NCBI RefSeq assembly: GCF_001898175.1
Contig: NZ_MKTH01000008.1
Coordinates: 186,001 to 250,000 of the forward strand
Length of the DNA stretch: 64,000 nt
Direction: 5' to 3'
From: Cellulomonas sp. 73-92
Lineage (GTDB): Bacteria; Actinomycetota; Actinomycetes; Actinomycetales; Cellulomonadaceae
Below the pieces are notes generated by a model. It saw nothing but the letters and a program-made list of their open reading frames with translations. It was not told the DNA's origin and ran no database searches. Position numbers and translations under genes: made by a program. Below are positions 11,462 through 47,309 of this stretch, in pieces; position 1 is the first letter of the stretch; each line of letters begins with the position of its first letter.

Positions 11462-11620
11462 ATGGCCGAGACCTACGCGGGTGAGTTCTACTGCGTGAAG
11501 TGCAAGGAGAAGCGGGAGGCGACGGGCGAGGTTGTCGTCTCGGAGTCCGGGCGCAAGATGGCCAAGGCCGTCTGCCCGGTCTGCGGCACCAAGCTCAACC
11601 GGATCCTCGGCAAGGCCTGA
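11462..11620 (+). CDS. DUF5679 zinc-ribbon protein
   Basis: A 52-residue protein shorter than most ORF callers' cut-off and hidden inside a longer track ORF. It has two CxxC pairs (YCVKCKEKRE and CPVCGTKLNRIL), so it should fold as a small zinc ribbon. A strong GAGGAGG lies 6 bases before the ATG, and a TACTGT -10-like box lies about 90 bases upstream (11368-11373). Family members are found across actinobacteria and have no assigned role. A 16-bp stem hairpin follows the stop, so it is probably its own transcription unit. Confidence 0.9.
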   Translation: MAETYAGEFYCVKCKEKREATGEVVVSESGRKMAKAVCPVCGTKLNRILGKA

Positions 11621-11631
11621 ACCGGTCCGTC

Positions 11632-11668
11632 CGCGAGGGGCTCCGCCATGGTGGCGGGGCCCCTCGCG
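11632..11668 (+). terminator. hairpin terminator after the DUF5679 gene
   Basis: Two 16-base arms (CGCGAGGGGCTCCGCC and GGCGGGGCCCCTCGCG) pair with one G-U wobble around a 5-base loop, 11 bases after the stop. No long T-tract follows. It separates the DUF5679 gene from the ThiF-like gene on the same strand. Confidence 0.7.
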
Positions 11669-11735
11669 TGTCTGTGGACGACGAAGCGTGCGCGGCCGGC
11701 GGCGCTGGCACTCTGCACCGGTGCGAGGGACCGGC

Positions 11736-12677
11736 GTGAGGCTGCGGACGGGGCTGCCCGTGCTGCGCCGCGGCGCCGACGAGGTGCAGGTCGGCACGGA
11801 CCCGCGCTGGGCCGTGCGCCTGACGAACCTGGCTCCCGACGAGGTCGAGGCCCTGGTCACGCGGCGTGCCGGGCTCGACGGGCCGCGGCTGGGCGGCCTG
11901 GTCGACGAGCTCGCGCTCGCCGGCCTCGCGGTGCCGGACGACATCCCCGACGGCCCGCCGGATTCCCTCGTGCTCGGGCTGCTGCGGCCGGAGGACGACC
12001 CGGTGGCGCGCACGCGCCGGCGCGGCGCCTCGTGCGTCGGCGTCGTCGGCCTCGGGCCCACCGGCCTCGGCATCGCGGCAGGGCTCGCGGCCGCGGGCGT
12101 CGGCACCGTCCTCCTGGACGACGAACGACCCGTGCGCACGGCCGACGTGGGCGCGACCGGCTACCGGTGGAGCGACGTCGGGCAGCCCCGCGAGCGGGCC
12201 GCCACCCGGCTGCTGCGGGACGTGGCCCCCACCGTCGACGTCGACGGCCCCGCGACGCCCGACGTCCTCGTCGTCGTCGAGGGCGCCGCGGCCGACCCGG
12301 CCCGCCCCGAGCGGCTCCTGTCGCTCGACGTCACGCACCTGTCGGTCGTGGTGCGCGAGGGGGACACCGTCGTCGGGCCGCTCGTCGTGCCCGGTGCGGG
12401 CGCGTGCCTGCGCTGCCTGGACCTGCATCGCGCCGACCTCGACCCCGCATGGCCGCTGGTCCTGTCCCAGCTCGTCGGCACGGACGCCGTGGAACCCGGT
12501 CCGGTCGCATCGGTCGCGGCCGGGCTGGCCGTGGCGAGCCTGCTGGCCACGGTCGACGGCCGGCCGATCGCCCCGGGGCTGACGTGGGAGGTCGCGCTGC
12601 CGGACGCGGTCCCACGGGAACGGGTGTGGCAGCCCCACCCGCGCTGCGGCTGCACCCGGCTGCCCGACGAGCCGTGA
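11736..12677 (+). CDS. ThiF/E1-like protein of the cyclodehydratase-related family
   Basis: A 313-residue protein. Homologues begin MRLRxGxPVLRR, matching the GTG at 11736 (VRLRTGLPVLRR) with GCGAGGGA 6 bases upstream; GTG 11721 is the alternative. Residues about 100-125 form a Rossmann glycine-rich loop (GVVGLGPTGLGIAAGL), and the C-terminus carries CLRCLDLHR and HPRCGC, probably a zinc site. The fold is shared with E1-like adenylyltransferases and with TOMM/bacteriocin cyclodehydratase partner proteins. No precursor peptide or YcaO gene is nearby, so a peptide-modification role is not supported. It converges on whiB7. Confidence 0.75.
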   Translation: MRLRTGLPVLRRGADEVQVGTDPRWAVRLTNLAPDEVEALVTRRAGLDGPRLGGLVDELALAGLAVPDDIPDGPPDSLVLGLLRPEDDPVARTRRRGASCVGVVGLGPTGLGIAAGLAAAGVGTVLLDDERPVRTADVGATGYRWSDVGQPRERAATRLLRDVAPTVDVDGPATPDVLVVVEGAAADPARPERLLSLDVTHLSVVVREGDTVVGPLVVPGAGACLRCLDLHRADLDPAWPLVLSQLVGTDAVEPGPVASVAAGLAVASLLATVDGRPIAPGLTWEVALPDAVPRERVWQPHPRCGCTRLPDEP

Positions 12678-12683
12678 GACGCG

Positions 12684-12719
12684 CGAGGGCCCCGCACCGG
12701 TCGTGGTGCGGGGCCCTCG
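12684..12719. terminator. bidirectional hairpin terminator between ThiF-like gene and whiB7
   Basis: A perfect 15-bp stem (CGAGGGCCCCGCACC and its complement) with a 6-base loop lies in the 51-base gap between two convergent genes. It reads equally well on both strands and has no T-tract. Confidence 0.85.
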
Positions 12720-12728
12720 TCGTCCGGC

Positions 12729-13052
12729 TCAGGCGGCCGGGTACACCGTGTCCTTGCGTGGGCGGCCACGGCCACGCTTCGTCGCGACCACCTGACCGCC
12801 GACGAACACCTCGCCACCCCAGACGCCCCACGGCTCCTCGCGCTCGATCGCGCCGGCCAGGCAGCCCTCCAGCAGCGGGCAGGTGCGGCAGAGCGCCTTG
12901 GCCTGCTCGACCTGGGCGGTGTGCTCGGCGAACCACAGCTCGGGGTCGTGCGTCCGGCACGGGATGAGGTCGGCGACCAGTCGGTCGAAGTCGTCGGCGC
13001 CCGTGGTGGAGACGCCCTGGTACACGGTGTCGAGCAGCGTCGTGAGCTGCAC
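12729..13052 (-). CDS. whiB7: WhiB7 transcriptional regulator
   Basis: A 107-residue iron-sulfur regulator. Four Cys (IPCRTHD, then ALCRTCPLLEGC) bind the cluster; EPWGVWGGE is the WhiB signature turn; the C-terminal RGRGRPRK is the AT-hook that marks WhiB7 among WhiB proteins. WhiB7 works with the housekeeping sigma factor to activate intrinsic antibiotic-resistance genes when translation is impaired. The GTG start has a strong AGGAGGAATC before it. It sits downstream of uvrD2, as in mycobacteria, behind a leader of more than 400 bases with alternative hairpins (separate entries). Confidence 0.95.
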   Translation of the reverse strand: MQLTTLLDTVYQGVSTTGADDFDRLVADLIPCRTHDPELWFAEHTAQVEQAKALCRTCPLLEGCLAGAIEREEPWGVWGGEVFVGGQVVATKRGRGRPRKDTVYPAA

Positions 13053-13144
13053 GATTCCTCCTGGAGTCCTTGCTGGTGAGCTGGTCTGGGTCCGCGGCCC
13101 CAGCTCACCGGGTTCTCCCGGAGAAACAGGAAGGCCGCGGACCC
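13042..13144 (-). promoter_or_regulatory. whiB7 leader: nested alternative hairpins (candidate attenuator)
   Basis: On the minus-strand RNA, arm A (13133-13144, GGGTCCGCGGCC) is perfectly complementary to arm A' (13088-13099). A' lies inside the loop of a second perfect 10-bp hairpin formed by GGTGAGCTGG (13100-13109) and CCAGCTCACC (13075-13084). The same GTGAGCTG can also pair with CAGCTCAC at whiB7 codons 1-4 (13042-13049), which would mask the start. No U-tract follows, so control may be on translation or by Rho. In mycobacteria whiB7 is known to be controlled by uORF-dependent attenuation; this arrangement fits that idea. Confidence 0.65.
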
Positions 13145-13184
13145 GGTGCGGGATCCACGGCCTGAGACGATGTTCGTCGTCAGA

Positions 13185-13403
13185 TCACGAGGTCCCGCGA
13201 GGGATCGGGTCGAGGTCGTCGAGGGCGACGCCGGTGCCGGCCGACGTGAGGAAGCCCACGACGGGCGCAGTACGCCCCTGGAGCTGGGCACGGCGGCGGT
13301 TGGCGGACACAGCACGCCCCTGGAACGGGGTGCCGGTGCCCGCGAGGAGGCACGCAGAAGCGCCCGTGCGGGTCATGAGGATCGTCGTCACGTCGGTCTG
13401 CAC
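13185..13403 (-). CDS. candidate whiB7 leader ORF (uORF), 72 codons
   Basis: A GTG-started ORF within the whiB7 leader that ends about 40 bases before the first regulatory hairpin arm. Codon third positions are G or C in all but about eight of 72 codons, as in true genes of this genome. GAGAGGGG abuts the GTG; a second GTG four codons on (VTTILMTRTGAS) is an alternative start. I recognise no family. Its place matches the uORF known in mycobacterial whiB7 leaders, though those are shorter. The overlapping 90-residue ORF in another frame is taken as a shadow. Confidence 0.45.
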   Translation of the reverse strand: MQTDVTTILMTRTGASACLLAGTGTPFQGRAVSANRRRAQLQGRTAPVVGFLTSAGTGVALDDLDPIPRGTS

Positions 13404-13493
13404 CCCCTCTCGTTCGTGGACCCGTGCCTCTTCGGCACAGCCCGGTGCTCAAACCTCGTCCACCGTAGGGGGACTTCCCCGCCGCGGCAACGG

Positions 13494-47203: not shown

Positions 47204-47220
47204 GTGGTGTGTGGCGACCG

Positions 47221-47300
47221 CCGGGCCCAGGCGTCCGACCCGCAGTCCTGCTGCTTCGTCGCTCCCCGGTGGGAACCCACCTTGCGCCAGTCGCGACGGC
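47221..47300 (-). ncRNA. ZTP (pfl) riboswitch controlling glyA-folD
   Basis: The minus-strand RNA reads CGTCGCGACTGGCG, then GGTGGG-TT-CCCACC, then GGGGAGCGACG, and after a variable linker GCCTGGGC. These are the conserved blocks of the pfl motif, in the right order and with the outer CGUCGC/GCGACG stem intact. ZTP riboswitches turn on one-carbon and purine genes when 10-formyl-THF is short. glyA and folD are classic targets. Confidence 0.92.
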
Positions 47301-47303
47301 GTC

Positions 47304-47309
47304 AGCCTA
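47304..47309 (-). promoter_or_regulatory. -10 box of glyA-folD
   Basis: TAGGCT lies just before the riboswitch, placing the transcription start at about 47297, the first base of the aptamer. The -35 is unclear. Confidence 0.5.

Follow-up and report, generated by a model that had tools for sequence, protein, structure and literature searches.

In actinobacteria, intrinsic resistance to ribosome-targeting drugs is governed by the master regulator WhiB7. Its gene, whiB7 or wblC, is reportedly controlled by a uORF-mediated transcription attenuator in both mycobacteria and Streptomyces (work attributed to Lee et al. 2022, Mol Microbiol 117:179). In four published reports (PMC11550727, PMC10727445, PMC13236596 and PMC4128351), the whiB7/wblC leader has a uORF, a Rho-independent terminator and an antiterminator made from overlapping uORF and terminator sequence, with induction by ribosome stalling. 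Translation is also regulated in two B. subtilis leaders. In vmlR (Takada et al. 2022, PMC9226507), the Shine-Dalgarno sequence is sequestered by a hairpin, which pairing within readthrough transcripts disrupts. The leader of tlrB (yxjB) combines transcription and translation attenuation (PMC6851288).

The window (the whole 64-kb stretch of DNA that was analysed) contains a gene of the WhiB family:

12729..13052, minus strand: whiB7 coding sequence with a GTG start, assigned from the Pfam Whib domain and the uvrD2-like and nudC-like neighbours

The predicted protein has a WhiB domain (Pfam E-value: 5.9e-16) followed by an RGRGRPRK tail. The gene adjoins an NAD(+) diphosphatase (NudC-type) gene and the gene of a UvrD-type helicase that carries an HRDC domain, and whiB7 is the sole close match in its own genome. 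The gene downstream of the leader is whiB7/wblC. Two genera of the family (g7 and g15) have two whiB7-like genes per genome (e.g. G087, G111, G127 and G189). Also adjoining whiB7 is a convergent gene (11532-12677, plus strand) encoding a ThiF-like protein, which has a weak, below-cut-off match to a TOMM leader-peptide-binding domain family. These two genes are separated by an inverted repeat (12684-12719; perfect over 15 bp, loop of 6 nt), probably a two-way terminator common to both.

Leaders were surveyed in 78 genomes of the genus with a match and in named relatives, mostly Cellulomonas. The comparisons within the genus used sets of 83, 76 (distinct) and 36 (non-redundant) leaders. RNAalifold recovered only the terminator from the 36-leader alignment. 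Because the post-terminator region aligns poorly, swap (permutation) tests were used instead, in which pairing with a leader's own partner is compared with pairing after partners are exchanged among the 36 leaders, phylogeny being ignored. The null for the permutation z-scores was provided by 48 unrelated pairs of segments, all taken from these leaders and their genes (mean 0.15, SD 1.16, minimum -3.1). Folding was computed at equilibrium at 37 C for RNA free of RNA polymerase and ribosomes.

The upstream part of the leader contains the following elements:

13462..13490, minus strand: putative promoter read from the sequence (-35 TTGCCG at 13485-13490, 17-nt spacer, -10 TACGGT at 13462-13467)
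13403..13409, minus strand: uORF Shine-Dalgarno sequence GAGGGGG, a GGAGG-type site found in the same place in genus leaders
13185..13391, minus strand: regulatory uORF of 68 codons with a GTG start and TGA stop, its translation carrying the genus motif P/T-FQG-x-A/G-V/L
13191..13198, minus strand: 5' strand of the antiterminator (GCGGGACC, at the end of the uORF), pairing with 13148-13155 (folding and swap test)
13132..13163, minus strand: intrinsic terminator hairpin with 5' arm 13151-13163, loop 13145-13150 and 3' arm 13132-13144 (sequence, folding and conservation)
13120..13132, minus strand: terminator U-tract, of which the segment 13120-13127 (GUUUCUCC) is predicted by folding to double as an anti-Shine-Dalgarno sequence

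The order on the minus strand is putative promoter, uORF, GGCCGTGGATCC-cgcacc-GGGTCCGCGGCC-TTCCTGTTT, a small hairpin, the hairpin P3, Shine-Dalgarno sequence and whiB7. The putative promoter has an A+T-rich stretch just upstream. The uORF and its ribosome-binding site are present in all genus leaders examined, and the uORF is predicted to be translated from this site. Most of these leaders have the FQG motif, which is of the APT-x-FQG type in most species of the genus and reads TPFQGRAV in the window. In the terminator, 13133-13144 pairs perfectly with 13151-13162 (two G-U pairs included) around a 6-nt loop, and a U-rich tract follows. A GGCCGCGG...CCGCGGCC hairpin with a U-rich tail precedes whiB7 in all 83 genus leaders, and its stem shows compensatory changes at three pairs among the 36. 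A hairpin with a U-tail also occurs in most of the Promicromonospora, Isoptericola, Pseudonocardia and Streptomyces relatives examined, and the same GGCCGCGG terminator was seen in Streptomyces, Pseudonocardia and Promicromonospora. Family-wide, whiB7 leaders conserve the terminator.

Folding of the nascent RNA of the 36 leaders gives an antiterminator that averages approximately 12 bp with the ribosome upstream and 2.9 bp once the ribosome stands at the stop codon of the uORF. In the window, the terminator has a predicted probability of 0.00 before the ribosome edge passes the uORF end and of 1.00 afterwards; in these models, antiterminator and terminator are mutually exclusive, as in the known attenuator class. 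The antiterminator co-evolves (own partner -19.7, permuted -18.8 +/- 0.29 kcal/mol; p = 0.0015, 36 leaders). The uORF end of the window is predicted to bind its own altered terminator arm better than 99% of foreign arms; the two partners have changed in concert there. A swap-rank test over the 76 leaders gave a flat result because the antiterminator arm hardly varies. In species other than that of the window, folding at equilibrium still favours the terminator. Antitermination in these species must accordingly depend on kinetics, the usual case for attenuators.

It is very likely that the uORF, terminator and antiterminator are present as read here. Like the described whiB7/wblC attenuators, this locus has an orthologue located by uvrD2, a uORF, a terminator between the uORF and the gene, and an antiterminator to which the end of the uORF and the terminator contribute. 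By sequence and predicted structure, the leader is a member of this class. The earlier note was right to take the mycobacterial type of uORF attenuator as its frame of reference and to propose an RNA switch upstream of whiB7. It recognized a 12-bp arm in the leader but overlooked the uORF and the terminator, although this arm is half of the terminator. Unlike the described attenuators, the window adds a predicted burial of the whiB7 Shine-Dalgarno sequence by the U-tract and a covarying P3, and its species carries the terminator 5' arm in duplicate, with the additional copy downstream of the terminator.

The elements downstream of the terminator are as follows:

13108..13121, minus strand: small hairpin P2, CCGGG-AGAA-CCCGG, predicted by folding in the induced conformer
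13075..13109, minus strand: 10-bp hairpin P3, between the terminator and the Shine-Dalgarno sequence (sequence; covariation in 36 leaders)
13088..13099, minus strand: duplicate of the terminator 5' arm within the loop of P3, forming 12 bp with the terminator 3' arm (sequence)
13057..13062, minus strand: whiB7 Shine-Dalgarno sequence AGGAGG, conserved in the genus
13042..13049, minus strand: segment CAGCTCAC of whiB7 codons 1-4, forming an 8-bp pairing with GTGAGCTG at 13101-13108 that shows no co-evolution

The 12-bp, 10-bp and 8-bp pairings described in the earlier note are all real on the minus strand. P3 is formed by 13075-13084 with 13100-13109, and its 15-nt loop contains 13088-13099, which can form 12 Watson-Crick pairs with 13133-13144 across a 33-nt spacer. 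Among 1500 dinucleotide shuffles of 13042-13144 (103 nt), a perfect 12-bp inverted repeat arose once and a 10-bp repeat eight times. The whole 64 kb has only 8 perfect repeats of at least 12 bp with a loop of at most 60 nt.

Compensatory change in homologous leaders, whose absence the earlier note would have taken as a refutation, is clear for P3: own-partner energies are -18.4 against -15.4 +/- 0.43 kcal/mol after swapping (z = -6.8; 36 leaders, 48 null pairs). P3 has thus very probably been under selection as a structure, which is the most secure new result bearing on the earlier note's finding. For the 12-bp pairing, the same check speaks only weakly, and the own-partner signal is modest. 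The terminator 3' arm pairs with the post-terminator stretch at -18.2 kcal/mol against -17.2 +/- 0.29 after swapping (p = 0.001 in 36 leaders; still p = 0.0015 when the window leader is omitted), but the z-score is -3.2, and the null set of 48 pairs includes one at -3.1. Across the genus, the signal for pairing between the terminator 3' arm and the P3 loop is suggestive.

The earlier note had further proposed that GTGAGCTG alternates between P3 and whiB7 codons 1-4, such that the start codon is covered and translation start controlled. The 8-bp GTGAGCTG/CAGCTCAC pairing does exist in the window. However, own and permuted energies are nearly the same (-14.97 vs -14.90 +/- 0.23; p = 0.40, in a test of low power with codons 2-4 near-invariant), and the pairing is weaker than P3 in 28 of the 36 leaders. 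In relatives, the P3 arms become, for example, GGTCGAGG/CCTCGACC, and codons 2-4 remain CGG CTC ACG. The pairing was rejected as a conserved switch arm, as it shows no co-evolution and the P3 arm loses its complementarity to codons 2-4; such a role for it is highly improbable. A role of the 12-bp repeat as a terminator or antiterminator that acts on termination itself was also discarded: RNA polymerase is already beyond the termination site when it transcribes the second arm, and no U-run stands behind P3. Because the copy is transcribed past this site, it cannot bring about antitermination and could affect only the fate of readthrough RNA.

The reading preferred here, with a probability of about 0.6, is that the whiB7 leader is a uORF transcription attenuator with a second, translational lock. 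Folding and comparison both point to this lock. When the terminator is formed in the window RNA, the U-tract segment GUUUCUCC is predicted to pair with the Shine-Dalgarno region GGAGGAAU, and a U-tract/Shine-Dalgarno pairing is predicted in 73 of the 76 distinct genus leaders. The structure of the readthrough RNA is thus predicted to sequester the whiB7 Shine-Dalgarno sequence. The mean cost of opening this sequence is 7.8 kcal/mol, versus 4.2 kcal/mol in shuffles (mean z 2.1), and 34 of the 36 leaders exceed the shuffle median. The cost in the window is 9.6 kcal/mol. In a control set of 51 genes that have a GGAGG site (mean 4.9), drawn from 304 kb of stretches of the same genome, 94% have a lower cost. 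Release of the terminator 3' arm reduces the opening cost by 2.6 kcal/mol, compared with 0.3 in shuffles (mean z 1.7; 36 leaders). The effect is sharpest in the window, where the cost, with folding started at the terminator 3' arm, falls from 9.6 to 3.0, a drop that none of 150 shuffles equals. Translation-start control, as put forward in the earlier note, is possible, but if real it would act through the U-tract and the Shine-Dalgarno sequence and not through codons 1-4.

The size of this effect depends on the RNA considered. When the whole uORF end is included, the opening cost in the window goes from 7.7-8.3 to 4.8-5.3 kcal/mol between conformers; the Shine-Dalgarno sequence is only partly freed, since it has alternative pairing partners in the uORF, near 13199-13207. 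The corresponding genus mean shifts little (7.6 to 6.6). The outer helix between tract and Shine-Dalgarno sequence is in the RNAalifold consensus of all 76 leaders and absent from that of the 36 representatives. Shuffling the U-tract alone reduces the opening cost from 7.8 to 5.3 kcal/mol, so base order matters and composition contributes too; a CU-rich U-tract would pair to some degree with any Shine-Dalgarno sequence. Three leaders (L158, L161 and L162) lack the U-tract/Shine-Dalgarno pairing and keep the uORF, the terminator and the P3 3' arm; when the C-terminal part of the helicase is compared, two of these three rank among those closest to the window. In Promicromonospora, the Shine-Dalgarno sequence is mostly unburied, with opening costs mostly about 2 kcal/mol.

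Alternatively, the known whiB7/wblC transcription attenuator could decide expression alone, and the post-terminator structures could be incidental or provide spacing to the Shine-Dalgarno sequence. The uORF, terminator and antiterminator would suffice for this and are conserved, published whiB7 work describes transcription attenuation alone in the accessible literature, and the 12-bp copy is lineage-specific. C-containing U-tracts also occur at the few other terminator-like sites detected in this genome (only 7 sites were found, one of which is the whiB7 terminator). The very clear covariation of P3 speaks against this explanation, as does the burial of the Shine-Dalgarno sequence, which is deeper than that seen for typical genes of the genome and for shuffles; the explanation is possible but doubtful. 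P3 could also be an mRNA-stability or ribosome-access element that protects the readthrough mRNA or presents the ribosome-binding site, with no switching. It is the best-supported helix after the terminator, with a near-constant distance from its end to the Shine-Dalgarno sequence, and other genera have a different pairing here (GTCCTGT with ACAGGAC before the Shine-Dalgarno sequence in the Cellulosimicrobium and Promicromonospora leaders, L050-L072). Yet P3 is nested in the predicted U-tract/Shine-Dalgarno helix and joins its strands, which a pure stabilizer need not do; this role is improbable.

The reading with two locks builds on the sequence elements and their conservation, on the co-evolution of the antiterminator and of P3, and on the predicted energies; from these we infer drug sensing at this locus, the order of events and the translational step. 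The proposed model is as follows. Without drug, a ribosome at the uORF end would cover GCGGGACC, the terminator would form and transcription would end within the leader. In the occasional readthrough transcript, the terminator would retain its 3' arm, P3 would form and the U-tract segment would pair with the whiB7 Shine-Dalgarno sequence, resulting in poor translation. Under drug or amino-acid shortage, a ribosome stalled early in the uORF would leave GCGGGACC to capture the terminator 5' arm, and transcription would continue. The freed terminator 3' arm could then form its 12 bp with the copy in the P3 loop. This pairing would open P3, enclose the U-tract away from the Shine-Dalgarno sequence and block refolding into the terminator form.

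For the window mRNA, the antiterminated fold is predicted at -92.3 kcal/mol versus -86.2 kcal/mol for the terminator fold. As the antiterminated fold contains the 12-bp pairing and is better by 6.1 kcal/mol, this pairing is read as a latch on the antiterminated message, although such a latch is only a tentative possibility. The broader proposal is that one strand, the terminator 3' arm, moves from its 5' arm to the duplicated arm in P3, both latching the message and uncovering the Shine-Dalgarno sequence otherwise hidden by the U-tract, with weaker forms across Cellulomonas; this, too, is conceivable but uncertain. The arm-loop pairing is perfect only in the window, where its energy has a z-score of -4.2 relative to shuffles (genus mean about -1). 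Two near-exact copies of the 5' arm around the terminator were found in 1 of 222 family genomes, that of the window. Cellulomonas aerilata (L048) has a similar but shorter copy, GGCCGCGGATCC. From these sequences, the 12-bp arm copy appears to be nearly private to the lineage of the window.

The probable second lock resembles that of vmlR. In both leaders, a uORF, antiterminator and terminator are followed by a structure that sequesters the Shine-Dalgarno sequence in readthrough RNA, as predicted here by folding. In vmlR, pairing in the induced conformer disrupts this structure, and a similar disruption may occur in the window. Unlike whiB7, vmlR is an ABCF ATPase gene from another phylum, and its Shine-Dalgarno sequence is sequestered by a separate hairpin (SL-4), whereas in the window the terminator U-tract itself is predicted to do so. 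The tlrB leader likewise has a leader peptide, an intrinsic terminator and a Shine-Dalgarno-sequestering structure (the last predicted here), but an antiterminator was not found there; its stalled ribosome blocks both structures, aided by NusG-dependent pausing. No description of a translational layer for whiB7 was found in the openly accessible literature searched, as judged from titles, abstracts and selected passages. If real, such a layer would explain tight silence without drug, mRNA measurements would miss part of the whiB7 response, and the Bacillus tlrB/vmlR design would have an actinobacterial parallel. A terminator U-tract serving as anti-Shine-Dalgarno sequence would be economical and is worth seeking elsewhere.

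Among curated Rfam families, none matches the leader at the gathering threshold, and the weak matches are far below the cut-off (E-values of 0.04 or worse). Elsewhere in the window, a ZMP/ZTP riboswitch (Rfam RF01750, 51.7 bits) is found at 47218-47304 on the minus strand. It lies directly upstream of a glyA-like frame (45875 to approximately 47153, minus strand), which is followed by a folD-like frame, as read from the translations. This riboswitch-glyA-folD layout is an ordinary, already known arrangement.
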